Part shown: in pieces, positions 19,777 through 35,562 of the stretch
Position numbering within the stretch: the stretch's first letter is position 1
Layout: the number at the start of each line of letters is the position of its first letter
NCBI GenBank assembly: GCA_944324555.1
Contig: CALUWU010000097.1
Location: 1 to 35,739 of the forward strand
Direction of reading: 5' to 3'
Source: an uncultured Desulfovibrio sp.
GTDB lineage: Bacteria > Desulfobacterota > Desulfovibrionia > Desulfovibrionales > Desulfovibrionaceae
DNA: 35,739 bases
Translations under genes and position numbers: made by a program
Notes under the pieces: generated by a model
What the model saw: only the letters and a program-made list of their open reading frames with translations
Told to the model about the DNA's origin: nothing
Database searches by the model: none

Positions 19777-19918
19777 GGAGTACTTTCAGTTTAAAACGCG
19801 TTGCGTCTCAAACCATACGGCCTGTCGTTTCGTGAAAAAACGCGGTGGTTCCGCGCAGTCGAGACCGTTGACGGCCGCGCCGCCCCCGCGCTTCGCAGTT
19901 GTCAGAAGCACAGGCTCT
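19777..19918 (+). repeat. Dispersed repeat family A, copy 2 (degenerate)
   Basis: Begins GGAGTACTTTCAG, aligning with AGAGCATTTTCAG of the other copies. It then has AAACGCGTTGCGTCTCAAAC and CATACGGCCTGTCGTTTCG, followed by a diverged second half. Its right end, GGCTCT, read on the minus strand is AGAGCC. This overlaps the TAG stop of the CHASE-GGDEF gene in the same register as copies 1 and 3. Confidence 0.75.
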
Positions 19919-21323
19919 ACACGCCCTTTCCCCTGACATGAAAGCTATATTTTTCTGAATACATGAGCTTATCAACCTTTTCCAGGAAAAACTCTCCCGC
20001 GCTGACGCCAGGCTGCTTTTCGGAAAGCATATCCTTCTCCGGCGACAGCGCGCCCAGGCTGACGGTAACATCAAGTTCGCGCCCATTGATATGATAGACG
20101 TCTTCAAGACGCCGCTTAATATTCTGAAGACGGTCAGGCATCTCGCCACCCTGCGGGTGGCAATAAAACACGGCGACAAACTCGTCGCCGCCAAACCGGG
20201 ATGCGAATTCGTTGAAGGAAAGTTCCGCAATCAGCCTTTTCGAAAATTCAATAAGGATCTTGTCCCCGGCAAGATGCCCATAAGTATCGTTTATTTCTTT
20301 AAATTTATTTATATCTACAACGCAGAGAAAAAGACGGGCCTCGCTTGCTCCATAGGAATAAGAGAGATGCCTTTCGAGCGCCGACTCAAATTTTTTCCAG
20401 AAATATCTTTTGTTGAAAAGTCCCGTAAGATCATCAACATTCATTTCAGCCTTAATCTTCTTATAATTGTTCAAGACATTTACAAAATAGGTAAACAGCA
20501 ACGACAATATAATACAAAATACTATGGAAAGCACGATAGCGACAATCAGTTTATTAACATTGATAAACACGGTTGCAGGCGCAATATCCATCCACCATGT
20601 CGCATTCTGCAAATTTATCTGGAACCTGTTGAAGTCTTCAGGAATAGCGCCTGACGACAGCAGGGAAAGCTTCTTGCCGCTTGCGGGGTCCTTGCGCCAG
20701 AGTTCCCAGTCAAATCCCGCGTTGGAGAGGATATTGAAATTCACGCCTCGTTTAAGAACTTCAGGAAAGCGATATATAATGACAGCAAATCCCCAGAAGA
20801 ACTCTTTCTTTGTATCGGGAGAAGGCAAATAAATGGGTTGCCGGAAGGCAAGACCGACGCCGCCCTGAAGAAGATGAAAAGGACCCGACACCGTCATTTT
20901 CTGCGTTTCTTTTGCAAGTAGCGCCTCTTCTTTCCGGGCGTCATCCTTTATAAGATTATGCCCCATTGATTTCTGATTTCCTTCATAAGGAAATATATGA
21001 GAAACAATTCCATCCTTTGCAAGATTCAAAACGATTATTTCAGGTCGCGACAGCAGTATCTTTTGCGCCGTCGTCGTAAATCCGGCAGAATCCCCCTTAT
21101 TGAGAATAACAAGCGTATACAGGGGCATGACGTCGAGCGACAGCTCATATAACTGCTTTGAAATTCGCTCTGCAAAAACATTGCCATAAAACTTTGTCAG
21201 TCTTTGCTTTTCGTCATATTCAGCGCGAAAGAATATATAAATAAAAACGCTCATCAATATGGCGGAATATAAAAAGACCCCCATAAATTTCAGCAAGAAA
21301 TCAGGCACTCGCTTTTTTTTCAA
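19917..21323 (-). CDS. CHASE-domain diguanylate cyclase (TTG start likely)
   Basis: 468-aa membrane sensor. TM1 is at about 10-34 and a periplasmic CHASE-like domain at about 40-260 contains GIVSHIFPYEGNQKSMGHNL. TM2 is near 270-295 (LIVAIVLSIVFCIILSLLF). The GGDEF domain has DDLTGLFNKRYFW and an intact RFGGDEF (GGDEF at 378-382), so c-di-GMP synthesis is expected. No RxxD inhibitory site precedes it. TTG 21323 is chosen because AAGGA lies 5-6 bp upstream. The in-frame ATG at 21449 falls inside a near-consensus -10 box and would add GC-rich sequence unlike a signalling N-terminus. The gene is visibly AT-rich against its surroundings, suggesting recent acquisition. Ligand unknown. Confidence 0.88.
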   Translation of the reverse strand: MKKKRVPDFLLKFMGVFLYSAILMSVFIYIFFRAEYDEKQRLTKFYGNVFAERISKQLYELSLDVMPLYTLVILNKGDSAGFTTTAQKILLSRPEIIVLNLAKDGIVSHIFPYEGNQKSMGHNLIKDDARKEEALLAKETQKMTVSGPFHLLQGGVGLAFRQPIYLPSPDTKKEFFWGFAVIIYRFPEVLKRGVNFNILSNAGFDWELWRKDPASGKKLSLLSSGAIPEDFNRFQINLQNATWWMDIAPATVFINVNKLIVAIVLSIVFCIILSLLFTYFVNVLNNYKKIKAEMNVDDLTGLFNKRYFWKKFESALERHLSYSYGASEARLFLCVVDINKFKEINDTYGHLAGDKILIEFSKRLIAELSFNEFASRFGGDEFVAVFYCHPQGGEMPDRLQNIKRRLEDVYHINGRELDVTVSLGALSPEKDMLSEKQPGVSAGEFFLEKVDKLMYSEKYSFHVRGKGV

Positions 21324-21447
21324 AAAAATCCTTATCAAGGCTTCCCCCGCATGCAAGCGCTCTTTTACCGCCGCGTCCGAAACGATCCCCCCGGCAACGG
21401 GCCCGCCGCCGACGGAGCCGTCGGCTCTCCCGCGCTCCGGCTCCCAC

Positions 21448-21476
21448 ATAATACCAAGCGTAAAAGCTCATCGCAA
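21448..21476 (-). promoter_or_regulatory. Probable promoter of the CHASE-GGDEF gene
   Basis: Minus strand: -35 TTGCGA (21471-21476), 17-bp spacer, -10 TATTAT (21448-21453). The predicted transcription start near 21441 leaves a leader of about 118 nt before the TTG start. The non-coding stretch 21324-21886 otherwise contains the inverted repeat at 21661-21690 and repeat A copy 3; no gene is seen in it. Confidence 0.5.
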
Positions 21477-30640: not shown

Positions 30641-30724
30641 TGGTGCGAGAGGCGGGACTTGAACCCGCATGGCCAGGCCGCTGGATTCTAAGTCCAGTGC
30701 GTCTACCAATTCCGCCACTCTCGC
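30641..30724 (-). tRNA. tRNA-Leu (anticodon UAG)
   Basis: 84 nt including an encoded CCA. The acceptor stem GCGAGAG/CTCTCGC has discriminator A. The D-arm has GGTAGACGC. The anticodon stem CTGGA/TCCAG carries loop CTTAGAA, giving anticodon TAG. A class II long variable arm follows, and the T-arm is GCGGG/CCCGC with TTCAAGT. Own promoter and terminator are visible on either side. Confidence 0.97.
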
Positions 30725-31644: not shown

Positions 31645-33024
31645 CTAGCCGCCGAACTTGTCCACATAGCCCATGACAAAAAGGAAGAGAATCACGAAAG
31701 GCAGCACATAGGTCAGGTACGGCCGCAGCCATGCCGGGAACTTCATGCCTTCGCCGGTATCCGTTTCGGCAATGAACTTGTCCCAGCCCCAGCCGTAGCG
31801 CACGCAGCAGAACAGCAGGAAGAACAGGCCGCCCAGCGGCAGCATGTGATTGCTGATGATGAAATCCTCAAGATCCAGCACCGACGAACCGGGGCCGAAG
31901 GGCTGGAAATCGGACCAGACGTTGAAGCCCAGAGCGCACGGCAGGGAAAGCAGCCAGAGCCCGAAAAAGTGCAGGACAACGGCCCGGCGGCGCGGCATGC
32001 CCCATACGTCGACGCTGTAGGAAATGATGTTCTCGAACACGGCAATGACCGTGGACAGCGCCGCGAAGGCCATGAGAATGAAAAAGAGCGTTCCCCACAG
32101 ACGGCCGAGGAACATGTTGTTGAAGATGTTGGGCAGGGTCACGAACACGAGACCGGGCCCGGAGTTGGGCGCGACGCCGAAAGAAAAGCAGGCGGGAAAG
32201 ATAATCAGACCGGCGAAGATGCCCACCAGCGTGTTGAACAGGGTGATCCACAGGGCTTCGCCGGTCAGGGCGTGTTCCTTGCCCTGATAGCTGCCGAAAA
32301 TGGTCATGGCCCCGATGCCCACGGAAAGACAGAAGAAGGACTGATTCATGGCCGCGCTGACGACGTTGAAAACGCCCTGCTCCAGGAACTTGTCCACGTC
32401 GGGCACAAGATAGAAGCGCACCCCCTCCATCGCGCCGGGCAGCAGCAGGGCGCGCCCCACCAGCACCAGCAGGATCAGGACAAGGCCGGCCATCATCAGC
32501 TTGACCACGCGCTCGACGCCCTTCTGCACCCCCATGGCGCAGATGCCCGAACCGATAAGCACCACCAGCGTCATGCCCAGAACCTGCGTTTCCGTGCTTC
32601 CCAGCACCTCGCCGAAAAACGCGCCGACCTGCGCGGGCTCCAGTCCGCTCAGCGCTCCGGAAGCCGTATACCAGCAGTAAAGCAGCATCCAGCCCGTCAC
32701 CACGGTGTAGAACATCATAAGGACATAGCTGCCTACCAGCGCCCACCAGCCAAAGCGATGCCACTGGGTCCCTTCCGGCTCAAGACGCCCGAAGGCAAGG
32801 CCCATGTTCCGCCGGGACGCGCGCCCCACGGCAAATTCCATGATCATGATGGGCACGACGGCCAGCAGGCAGATCAGGAAGATGCCGACGAAGATCGCCC
32901 CGCCGTAATTGCCCGTGATGTACGGGAAGCGCCAGACGTTGCCAAGACCGATGGCGCAACCGGCCGACAGCAGCAGAAAGCCCAGACGGCTGCTCAACAT
33001 TTCACGCGATTTCTTCTCAGCCAT
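31645..33024 (-). CDS. Sodium-dependent NSS-family symporter, copy 1
   Basis: 459-aa polytopic Na+-coupled symporter of the neurotransmitter:sodium symporter (SNF) family. SRLGFLLLSAGCAIGLGNVW then RFPYITGNYGG is the TM1 Na+/substrate-site signature. MIMEFAVGRASRRN, the TM6-like segment SFFCLSVGIGAMTIFGSYQG and FAALSTVIAVFENIISYSVD also match bacterial NSS proteins such as MhsT. Substrate is probably a hydrophobic or aromatic amino acid; it cannot be resolved by sequence alone. It starts 27 bp after the homologous NSS gene, with a GGGAGAA ribosome binding site. Its TAG stop is followed by AGC, the same TAGAGC context as the family A-flanked genes, though no full repeat follows. Confidence 0.93.
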   Translation of the reverse strand: MAEKKSREMLSSRLGFLLLSAGCAIGLGNVWRFPYITGNYGGAIFVGIFLICLLAVVPIMIMEFAVGRASRRNMGLAFGRLEPEGTQWHRFGWWALVGSYVLMMFYTVVTGWMLLYCWYTASGALSGLEPAQVGAFFGEVLGSTETQVLGMTLVVLIGSGICAMGVQKGVERVVKLMMAGLVLILLVLVGRALLLPGAMEGVRFYLVPDVDKFLEQGVFNVVSAAMNQSFFCLSVGIGAMTIFGSYQGKEHALTGEALWITLFNTLVGIFAGLIIFPACFSFGVAPNSGPGLVFVTLPNIFNNMFLGRLWGTLFFILMAFAALSTVIAVFENIISYSVDVWGMPRRRAVVLHFFGLWLLSLPCALGFNVWSDFQPFGPGSSVLDLEDFIISNHMLPLGGLFFLLFCCVRYGWGWDKFIAETDTGEGMKFPAWLRPYLTYVLPFVILFLFVMGYVDKFGG

Positions 33025-33051: not shown

Positions 33052-34428
33052 CTACTTGCTCAGGCGCTCCGCATAGCCCATGACAAAAACAATCAGAATC
33101 AGACAGGGCAGAACATAGGTCAGATAGCCCTTGAGGCAGCGCGGAAAGCGCAGCCCCGCGCCCTTGTTGGCCTCCGCCAGAAAATTTTCCCATCCCCAGC
33201 CGCGCCGAGTGCAGCAGAAGAAAAGAAACATCAGGGTGCCGACAAAGAGCAGATTATTGCTGATCAGGAAATCTTCCAGATCAAGCACGCTGCTGCCCGG
33301 CCCCATGGGCTGAAAGTCGGCCAGCACGTTGAAGCCCAGAGCGCACGGCAGGGAGCACAGCCACAGCCCCGCAAGATGCAGCAGGGCCGAAGCGCGCCGC
33401 GACATGCCCCATACATCCATGCTGTAGGATATGATGTTCTCGAAAACCGCGATGACCGTTGACAAGGCAGCAAAGGCCATGAAGACGAAAAAGAGGACGC
33501 CCCAGATACGGCCGCCCTCCATGGCGTTGAAGATATTGGGCAGAGTCACGAAAATCAGGCCGGGGCCGCCTCCGGCGTCCACGCCGAAGGCAAAGCAGGC
33601 CGGAAAGATCACAAGGCCGGCCATGATGGCCACAAAGGTGTCCATGCCCACAATCCAGACGCCCTCCCCCGCAAGGCTGCGGTCGTCGGACTGGTAGCTG
33701 CCGAAAATGGTCATGGAGCCGATGCCCACGGAGATGGTGAAGAAGGCCTGATTCAGCGCCGCGTTGCAGGCGGTGAAAAAGCCCGTGTCGAACAGACGCC
33801 CGAAATCCGGCGCCAGATAGAAGGTTACGCCCGCCCCGGCGCCCGGCAGCGTCAGCGAACGAAAGACAAGCAGCACAAGAATCAGGAAAAGGCCGCCCAT
33901 CATCACCTTGACGATGCGCTCGACGCCCTTCTGCACGCCCAGCGAACAGACAAAGCAGCCCGTAAACACGGCGACGCTCATGCCCGCGACCTGCAACCAG
34001 GGATTTGCCAGCGCGCCGCCGAAAAAGGCCGCCACGCCCGCCGGATCAAGATCCGACAACTGCCCGGAAAGGGCGAACCAGCAATAGGAAAGCAGCCAGC
34101 CCGTGACCACGGTATAGAACATCATCAGCAGGTAGCTGCCAACCAGCGCCAGCCAGCCGAAACGATGCCATTTCGTGCCCTCCGGCTCCAGTTTCCGCAG
34201 GGCGCGCCCCATATTGCAGCGCGCCGCGCGCCCCACGGCAATTTCCATGATAAGAATGGGCGTGACCGCCAGCAGGCAGCACAGATAAATGACAACAAAG
34301 GCTGCGCCGCCGTACAGGCCGGTAATATAGGGGAAACGCCAGATATTGCCGAGACCGATGGCGCAACCGGCCGACAGCAGCAGAAATCCCAGTCTAGACC
34401 CCAATACTTCACGCGAAGCTTTCCCCAT
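33052..34428 (-). CDS. Sodium-dependent NSS-family symporter, copy 2
   Basis: 458 aa, near-collinear with the downstream gene and sharing long identical blocks (SRLGFLLLSAGCAIGLGN, LMMFYTVVTGW, GVQKGVER, FAALSTVIAVFENIISYS). The pair therefore arose by tandem duplication. TM1 and TM6-like signatures are intact, so it should be functional. Substitutions cluster in the TM3-TM5 region and the loop with SGQLSDLDPAGVAAFFGG, so specificity may differ. The start ATG 34428 follows AAGGAG about 11 bp upstream. It lies 28 bp after selD and is probably cotranscribed with it. Confidence 0.93.
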   Translation of the reverse strand: MGKASREVLGSRLGFLLLSAGCAIGLGNIWRFPYITGLYGGAAFVVIYLCCLLAVTPILIMEIAVGRAARCNMGRALRKLEPEGTKWHRFGWLALVGSYLLMMFYTVVTGWLLSYCWFALSGQLSDLDPAGVAAFFGGALANPWLQVAGMSVAVFTGCFVCSLGVQKGVERIVKVMMGGLFLILVLLVFRSLTLPGAGAGVTFYLAPDFGRLFDTGFFTACNAALNQAFFTISVGIGSMTIFGSYQSDDRSLAGEGVWIVGMDTFVAIMAGLVIFPACFAFGVDAGGGPGLIFVTLPNIFNAMEGGRIWGVLFFVFMAFAALSTVIAVFENIISYSMDVWGMSRRASALLHLAGLWLCSLPCALGFNVLADFQPMGPGSSVLDLEDFLISNNLLFVGTLMFLFFCCTRRGWGWENFLAEANKGAGLRFPRCLKGYLTYVLPCLILIVFVMGYAERLSK

Positions 34429-34456: not shown

Positions 34457-35518
34457 TCAGGCGCGCAGCAGCAGCGCCGTTCCGTCTTCCCGCGCAGGCA
34501 GAACCTCTCCCACCACGGCGTCCAGTTCGCCGTTCTCGCGCAGGAAGGCCCGGACTTCGTCCAGGCGATCCCGCGGCGTCGCCAGCAGGAGCCCGCCGGA
34601 GGTCTGGGCGTCAAAGGCAACCATCTCCAGCGCGTCGTCCAGCTCGCCGTCGCGACGCAGCGCGCAGAGGCAGTGACGGCGATTGTTGTAGCTGCCCGCC
34701 GGGATCAGACCGTCGTTGGCATAGTCCAGCGCGCGCGGCAGCAGCGGCAGGGCCGCCATGTCCAGCGCCACGCACACGCCCGAGGCCCGCGCCATTTCCA
34801 GCGCGTGCCCCGCAAGACCGAAACCGGTTATATCCGTGGCCGCCGGCAGGCGGAAACGACGGATGGCCTCGCCCGGAAACTTGTTGAGCCGGCCGCACCA
34901 GCGGCACAGGGCCGCTTCGCTTTCCTCGGCGCCGTCCCACCCGGCCTTGACGCCGGTGGCAAGAATGCCCGTTCCCAGAGGCTTGGTCAGCACAAGGGCA
35001 AGACCGGGGCGCAGATTGCGATTTTCCGCGATATGTTCCGGGTCAATCAGTCCCGTGACGGACAGGCCGAACTTGAGCTCGTCGTCCTGCACCGTATGCC
35101 CGCCCACGACGACCGCGCCGGCTTCCACGGCGGCTTCCGCGCCCCCCCGCAAAATGGCGGACAGGACGCCTTCCGGATCGTCTTCCGCCAGTTCCTGCGG
35201 AAAGCAGGCAATATTCATGGCGCACCAGGGTTCGCCGCCCAGCGCGTACACGTCGGAAAGCGCGTTGGCGGCGGCGATGCGCCCGAAGTGAAAGGCGTCG
35301 TTGACGATGGGCGCGAGAATGTCCACCGTCTGCACCAGCGCCTTCCCGGCGGGGGCGCGCACGACGGCCGCGTCCTCGTTCCCGCTTCTTCCGGCCAGCA
35401 CGCGCGCTTCCAGCGAAGGCGGCATGGCGGAAGACAAACCGCATAACAGCCGCTCCAGGGCCCCTGGAGCCATTTTCGCCGCTCAGCCGGCGGCTCTGGC
35501 CTTTTGCAGAAGCTGCAT
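34457..35518 (-). CDS. selD: Selenide, water dikinase (selenophosphate synthetase), selenocysteine-containing
   Basis: 353-aa enzyme making selenophosphate from selenide and ATP, the selenium donor for Sec-tRNA. The downstream part is unmistakable: SGNEDAAVVRAPAGKALVQT, VDILAPIVNDAFHFGRIAAA, NALSDVYALGGEP, GGHTVQDDELKFGLSVTG and TDITGFGLAGHALEMA. The true start is ATG 35518 after GGGAGGG, reading MQLLQKARAAG, UGA (codon 12), AAKMAPGALERLL. UGA sits exactly where SelD has its catalytic Cys/Sec, and Lys15 is three residues on, as in E. coli Cys17/Lys20. A SECIS-like hairpin follows. An ATG-only call at 35473 would give 338 aa and drop both catalytic residues. It heads the selD-NSS-NSS cluster and has a good promoter upstream. 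Confidence 0.93.
35452..35485 (-). promoter_or_regulatory. Sec UGA codon and SECIS-like hairpin of selD
   Basis: UGA occupies 35483-35485. Starting 13 nt downstream, GCTCCAGG (35463-35470) pairs with CCTGGAGC (35452-35459) around a 3-nt GGC loop, putting the apex about 21 nt past the UGA. Bacterial SECIS elements form a stem-loop at this distance inside the coding region. Confidence 0.7.
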
Positions 35519-35562
35519 GCCACCCTCCCGTAAAAATTTTCTCTTTCGCCCTTCCCGGGGCC

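Follow-up and report, generated by a model that had tools for sequence, protein, structure and literature searches.

A selD gene on the minus strand of a draft Desulfovibrio-like genome very probably (we put the probability at roughly 0.97) encodes a selenide, water dikinase that contains selenocysteine (Sec), which is predicted to be inserted at an in-frame UGA in the active site. The window in which the gene lies is the whole stretch of DNA that was analysed, 35,739 nucleotides in length, and its features are collected in Table 1. This reading draws on direct observation of the frame, its homology, the aligned position of the UGA codon, the machinery genes, the pattern of UGA and Cys codons among relatives and the conservation of a hairpin.

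Table 1. Features of the window considered in this study
Feature	Position	Strand	Basis or remark
selD, 353 aa with UGA as selenocysteine (including stop codon)	34457..35518	minus	direct reading, TIGR00476 and structure alignment
GGGAGGG, Shine-Dalgarno-like, four bases 5′ of ATG	35523..35529	minus	direct reading
ATG start of the full-length frame	35516..35518	minus	direct reading and relatives
In-frame UGA, codon 12, aligned to the presumed catalytic Cys17 of E. coli SelD (3u0o)	35483..35485	minus	
Internal ATG, start of table-11 ORF	35471..35473	minus	ORF list; without conservation in relatives
SECIS-type hairpin, 8 bp, loop GGC	35452..35470	minus	folding and conservation in relatives
tRNA-Leu gene	30641-30724	minus	
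Two PF00209 (sodium:neurotransmitter-symporter-family) transporters	31645-33024, 33052-34428	minus	directly downstream of selD

Direct reading of the minus strand gave 11 sense codons before the TGA (MQLLQKARAAG) and, after it, AAKMAPGALE at the head of 341 further codons that are open to the stop at 34459-34457. The first-pass annotation had described the GGGAGGG motif, the ATG, the 11 codons, the UGA and the peptide that follows, and its coordinates proved exact throughout. When scored with C written in place of U, the 353-aa protein matched TIGR00476 (SelD; selenide, water dikinase) at 315.7 bits, where the curated cut-off is 125, with residues 3-317 on model positions 2-309. It was also aligned with two structures, 3u0o (E 1.6e-55, from residue 2 to 346) and 2yye (from residue 2 to 339), which we take to be the SelD proteins of E. 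coli and Aquifex, respectively. Both chains belong to the same family and have an active-site position matching that of the window's SelD, but carry Cys where the latter has UGA; UGA12 falls on the Cys of an AGC motif in each. In 3u0o, UGA12 and Lys15 align with a Cys and a Lys, the Lys lying three residues after the catalytic position; presumably, these are the catalytic Cys17 and Lys20 of the E. coli enzyme. The UGA-x-x-Lys spacing, which had been equated from the letters alone with Cys17-x-x-Lys20, therefore agrees with the alignment, as does the placing of the UGA on the Cys column when the 353-aa reading is set beside Sec- and Cys-form SelD proteins.

It might be argued that the UGA is a true stop, and that translation of SelD begins at the internal ATG (35473), leaving out the catalytic residue. 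The list of open reading frames (table 11) does give a 338-aa frame that opens with this ATG (35473-35471), and the protein still scores 296.2 bits against TIGR00476 without its first 15 residues. However, those 15 residues add 19.5 bits to the score (part of this being due to C scored for U), and the corresponding place is occupied by ATG in only 8 of 62 distinct UGA forms, Leu codons standing there in 27 of the others, Ile codons in 14 and Val codons in 13; 11 of these codons are GTG or TTG. Furthermore, the peptide 5′ of the UGA (LLEKARAAG-like) is conserved in relatives, which would not be needed in an untranslated leader, and many relatives have an M at an equal distance 5′ of the catalytic codon. 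We therefore regard an internal start as highly improbable.

The first-pass annotation had also warned that automatic annotation would very likely begin the gene at 35473. That does not hold in general: SelD was found in 166 of 72,556 plasmid records, all with less than 60% identity to the window's SelD, and in both of the RefSeq records that were examined among these 166, selD is annotated through the UGA. The warning is only partly fair; according to an excerpt of a recent report (PMC12013277, 2025), NCBI annotation was correct for 195 of the 298 selenoprotein genes present in 20 test genomes.

The catalytic codon was followed in 61 genomes, comprising the window's own, 36 marked as the same genus and 24 marked as the same order. 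A SelD match was present in 49 of them, and the codon was legible in 47, after setting aside G055, where a contig end truncates SelD ahead of the catalytic codon, and G001, where the match (70.7 bits) is below the SelD cut-off of 125. It reads TGA in 44 genomes, TGC in two (G018 and G036) and TGT in one (G009), in relatives that are mutually non-independent. With UGA in 44 of the 47 and a Cys codon in the other three, the UGA is more than chance. A sense codon other than Cys or Sec, which had been named, if found in a close strain along with an intact alternative N-terminus, as evidence that would overturn the Sec reading, occurred in none of the 47. The Cys-encoding copies in G009, G018 and G036 are the same gene as the window's selD, in genomes marked as the same genus, and differ in having TGT or TGC in place of UGA. 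Named records supplied a further 40 loci, in a set that overlaps with the 61 genomes; 28 of the 40 have TGA and 12 have Cys, the latter being from eight Campylobacterota, two Cyanobacteria/Melainabacteria and two Desulfovibrio isolates (L069 and L070), and all 10 loci fetched from Campylobacterota and Cyanobacteria/Melainabacteria had Cys. An in-frame UGA aligned with Cys in homologues, one of the marks of a selenoprotein gene, is thus what was found here. The highest identity among named relatives was 91%, to Candidatus Desulfovibrio intestinigallinarum (Desulfovibrionaceae), although records nearest to the window's own were possibly outside the search.

The presence of selA, selB and selC, which the first-pass annotation took to be implied by a UGA-containing selD, was borne out in the window's own genome, a fragmented draft of 192 contigs that is 88% complete. 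It contains SelA (575.4 bits), SelB (329.7 bits, or 351.1 with its neighbour in frame) and a tRNA-Sec (82 bits), which ARAGORN calls as SeC with anticodon TCA. For the comparison across genomes, tRNA-Sec was counted at 70 bits or more, giving 46 genomes, whereas 52 of the 61 have some match over the gathering score; the same search gave matches in 14 of 14 control genomes, five of which were over the cut-off. Matches of 47 to 52 bits were not counted, one of them (L002) being a tRNA-Ser by ARAGORN. SelB family matches occur in all 61 genomes via related elongation factors, and the 46 over the cut-off were counted; a SelA match of 19.8 bits in G027 was not.

By these measures, none of the 44 genomes with a UGA-containing SelD is devoid of machinery: SelA, SelB and tRNA-Sec are all over threshold in 39, and the other five have one or two of them. 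Three are without one component (G014, G017 and G047, with completeness given as 99% for G017 and 94% for G047), and two are without two (G020 and G051). Among the genomes with Cys-SelD, G009 and G036 have none of the three over threshold and G018 has them all. G055, with its cut SelD, has two of the three, and 11 of the 13 genomes without SelD are without any machinery. The association of machinery with UGA-SelD, compared with the 16 other genomes, gave a Fisher p of 1e-10, a value that leaves out G055 and ignores relatedness. The remaining two genomes without SelD, G025 and G052, have SelA, SelB, tRNA-Sec and a UGA-containing formate dehydrogenase, but a SelD over the family cut-off was not found in either; an assembly gap is the likelier answer.

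Other candidate selenoprotein genes were present in the window's own genome. One in-frame TGA lies in a full-length formate dehydrogenase alpha (1337.7 bits), within RVUHSPTVAAL; another formate-dehydrogenase-like frame, which matches in part, has an in-frame UGA in RLUHGPTVAGL, and a HesB-like frame, at 41.6 bits and below its cut-off of 66.35, has one in GGUSGPRLALALDEP. We take all three contexts to be Sec sites. Formate dehydrogenases over the cut-off with an in-frame TGA were also found once each in G018, G025 and G028, and twice in G052, while the formate dehydrogenase family gave no match in G009 or G036. MnmH (selenouridine synthase family) was over the cut-off in only three of the 61 genomes, the window's own among them (342.1 bits, contig C56:4309-5208 of G000). 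The window's genome carries genes for both selenium traits.

These observations bear upon the possibility that the UGA encodes some residue other than Sec, by way of a suppressor tRNA or an altered code. The open frame would be compatible with such decoding, and nothing else in its favour was found. In contrast, the family has Cys or Sec at this position, the Sec machinery is present in the same genome, where UGA also interrupts the formate-dehydrogenase frames, and the two genomes that have SelD without machinery (G009 and G036) have a Cys codon. Decoding as another residue is therefore very hard to credit. Least plausible of all is that the UGA arose through faulty sequencing or assembly, or that selD is a pseudogene in which a Cys codon has mutated to a stop. 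The fragmented state of the draft and the single base separating Cys from stop might suggest this, but it is already refuted by the relatives, as the UGA recurs in 44 of 47 readable SelD genes, the nearest of which have 90-91% protein identity and are open over the rest of the frame.

In the Sec reading that we favor, translation would start at 35518, and the hairpin just 3′ of codon 12 would hold SelB with its Sec-tRNA(Sec) in place, so that Sec would be inserted at this codon instead of termination occurring. Sec12 would then be the catalytic residue, three positions before Lys15. The enzyme would supply selenophosphate to SelA, and thereby for the Sec both in SelD itself and in the formate dehydrogenases; selenophosphate would probably also be used by MnmH in the same genome.

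The hairpin comprises 19 bases beginning at the 13th base past the UGA, with the first base of its loop at the 21st. A hairpin after the UGA with a G in its apical loop is a further mark of a bacterial selenoprotein gene, and an excerpt of an earlier study (PMC1088965, 2005) describes bacterial SECIS elements as commonly having a small apical loop that contains a guanosine. Bacterial SECIS genes covered by that excerpt, such as formate dehydrogenase alpha, likewise have an in-frame UGA and then a hairpin with an apical-loop G, although formate dehydrogenase alpha differs from the window's selD in being another enzyme. Folding energy by itself was not significant: 471, 591 and 2310 of 5000 synonymous recodings were as stable or better over 42, 45 and 48 nt, respectively, and 196 of 1017 overlapping windows of selD were equally stable. 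For a G+C-rich gene such as this, the energy is unremarkable.

Conservation gave a different picture. The codon could be read in 87 loci (72 TGA and 15 Cys). Over the 45 nt that come after it, the UGA forms fall into 61 distinct sequences, and the eight stem pairs are all kept in 45 of them, seven in nine, six in five and five in two (L087 and L089). All 61 begin the loop with G (+21). At pair +20/+24, 40 forms have GC, 11 AT and six GT, and four are unpaired; at pair +13/+31, 39 have GC, six TA, three CG and three TG, and 10 are unpaired. On average, 7.60 pairs were observed, compared with 5.13 of eight in recoded genes, which still form that many because the amino acids favor part of the stem. 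When each UGA gene was set against synonymous recodings of itself, 53 of 62 exceeded them at p<0.05. For the window's gene, 2000 recodings gave p 0.0015, a value that is biased, as the pairs tested are those of its own fold. Of 13 distinct Cys forms, only four of which are from close relatives (L029, L039, L069/L086 and L070), 12 make two to five pairs, and the other, L029 (G009), makes seven, as would be expected of a recent change from Sec to Cys. The hairpin does not, therefore, cleanly separate the UGA and Cys classes, given the five pairs of L087 and L089 and the seven of L029. As a putative SECIS element, it is convincing only by its conserved position, its loop G and its paired changes, and not by its energy. 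The earlier proposal of a hairpin 13 nt past the UGA accordingly stands with regard to position and to conservation in most relatives, but is unconvincing on energy alone.

A sub-group consisting of L089 (G028), L086 (G018), L039 (G036) and L070 has AAKIPP...LAGLL after the catalytic site. Within it, G028 has a UGA together with only five of the eight usual pairs; on visual inspection, a short stem displaced by one base may substitute.

We also built a tree of 67 SelD sequences, 47 from the genomes and 20 from among the 40 named loci, after masking the catalytic residue. It requires three changes between Sec and Cys. Two Cys groups nest among the UGA forms of relatives, namely G009 alone, and G036 with G018 and L070, the latter group adjoining the UGA form of G028; because of this nesting, the direction would be from Sec to Cys. 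The root is by midpoint only, and the program warns of long-branch joining of the distant Cys forms. The tree suggests that Cys-SelD arose at least twice in the group, and at least once in a lineage that is also without Sec machinery. Because Sec depends on selenophosphate, and SelD depends on Sec to make it, one could speculate that selD acts as a self-sustaining selenium switch, in which this feedback loop would collapse below some selenium level and lineages would escape by acquiring a Cys codon; we consider this unlikely.

Elsewhere in the window, a search with Rfam at gathering thresholds over its whole length returned only one tRNA, at 30644-30724. The two transporters are 67% identical to each other. 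Their linkage to selD, as possible selenium transporters, was dropped, having been seen in two of 70 loci (the window and L046), a weak count in that many loci end at a contig end or about 1500 bases past selD. The 1-kb step with the lowest G+C (0.449 at 20001-21000, compared with 0.51-0.73 in the others) covers a CHASE-GGDEF protein (19917-21449, minus strand).

Sec-containing SelD has been known for about twenty years, including in the same genus, and ours is a further example rather than a new kind, judging from the excerpts of PMC1794560 (2006), PMC4561486 (2015) and PMC1088965. In the first of these, SelD is listed among eight selenoproteins of Desulfovibrio vulgaris, and every selenoproteome includes FdhA or SelD. 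The D. vulgaris protein is the same enzyme under the same genus name, with no difference known from that excerpt, the likeness being taken from the listing and not from sequence. Biologically, a known pattern is confirmed: selD in this draft genome gains its right start and a full active site, which supports use of the Sec trait by the organism. The remaining interest is in the genomes that have Cys-SelD with the full machinery (G018) or without it (G009 and G036), and in those with machinery and no detected SelD (G025 and G052). Such a close set of Sec and Cys forms, with and without machinery, offers a usable natural series in which to study when SelD gives up its Sec.
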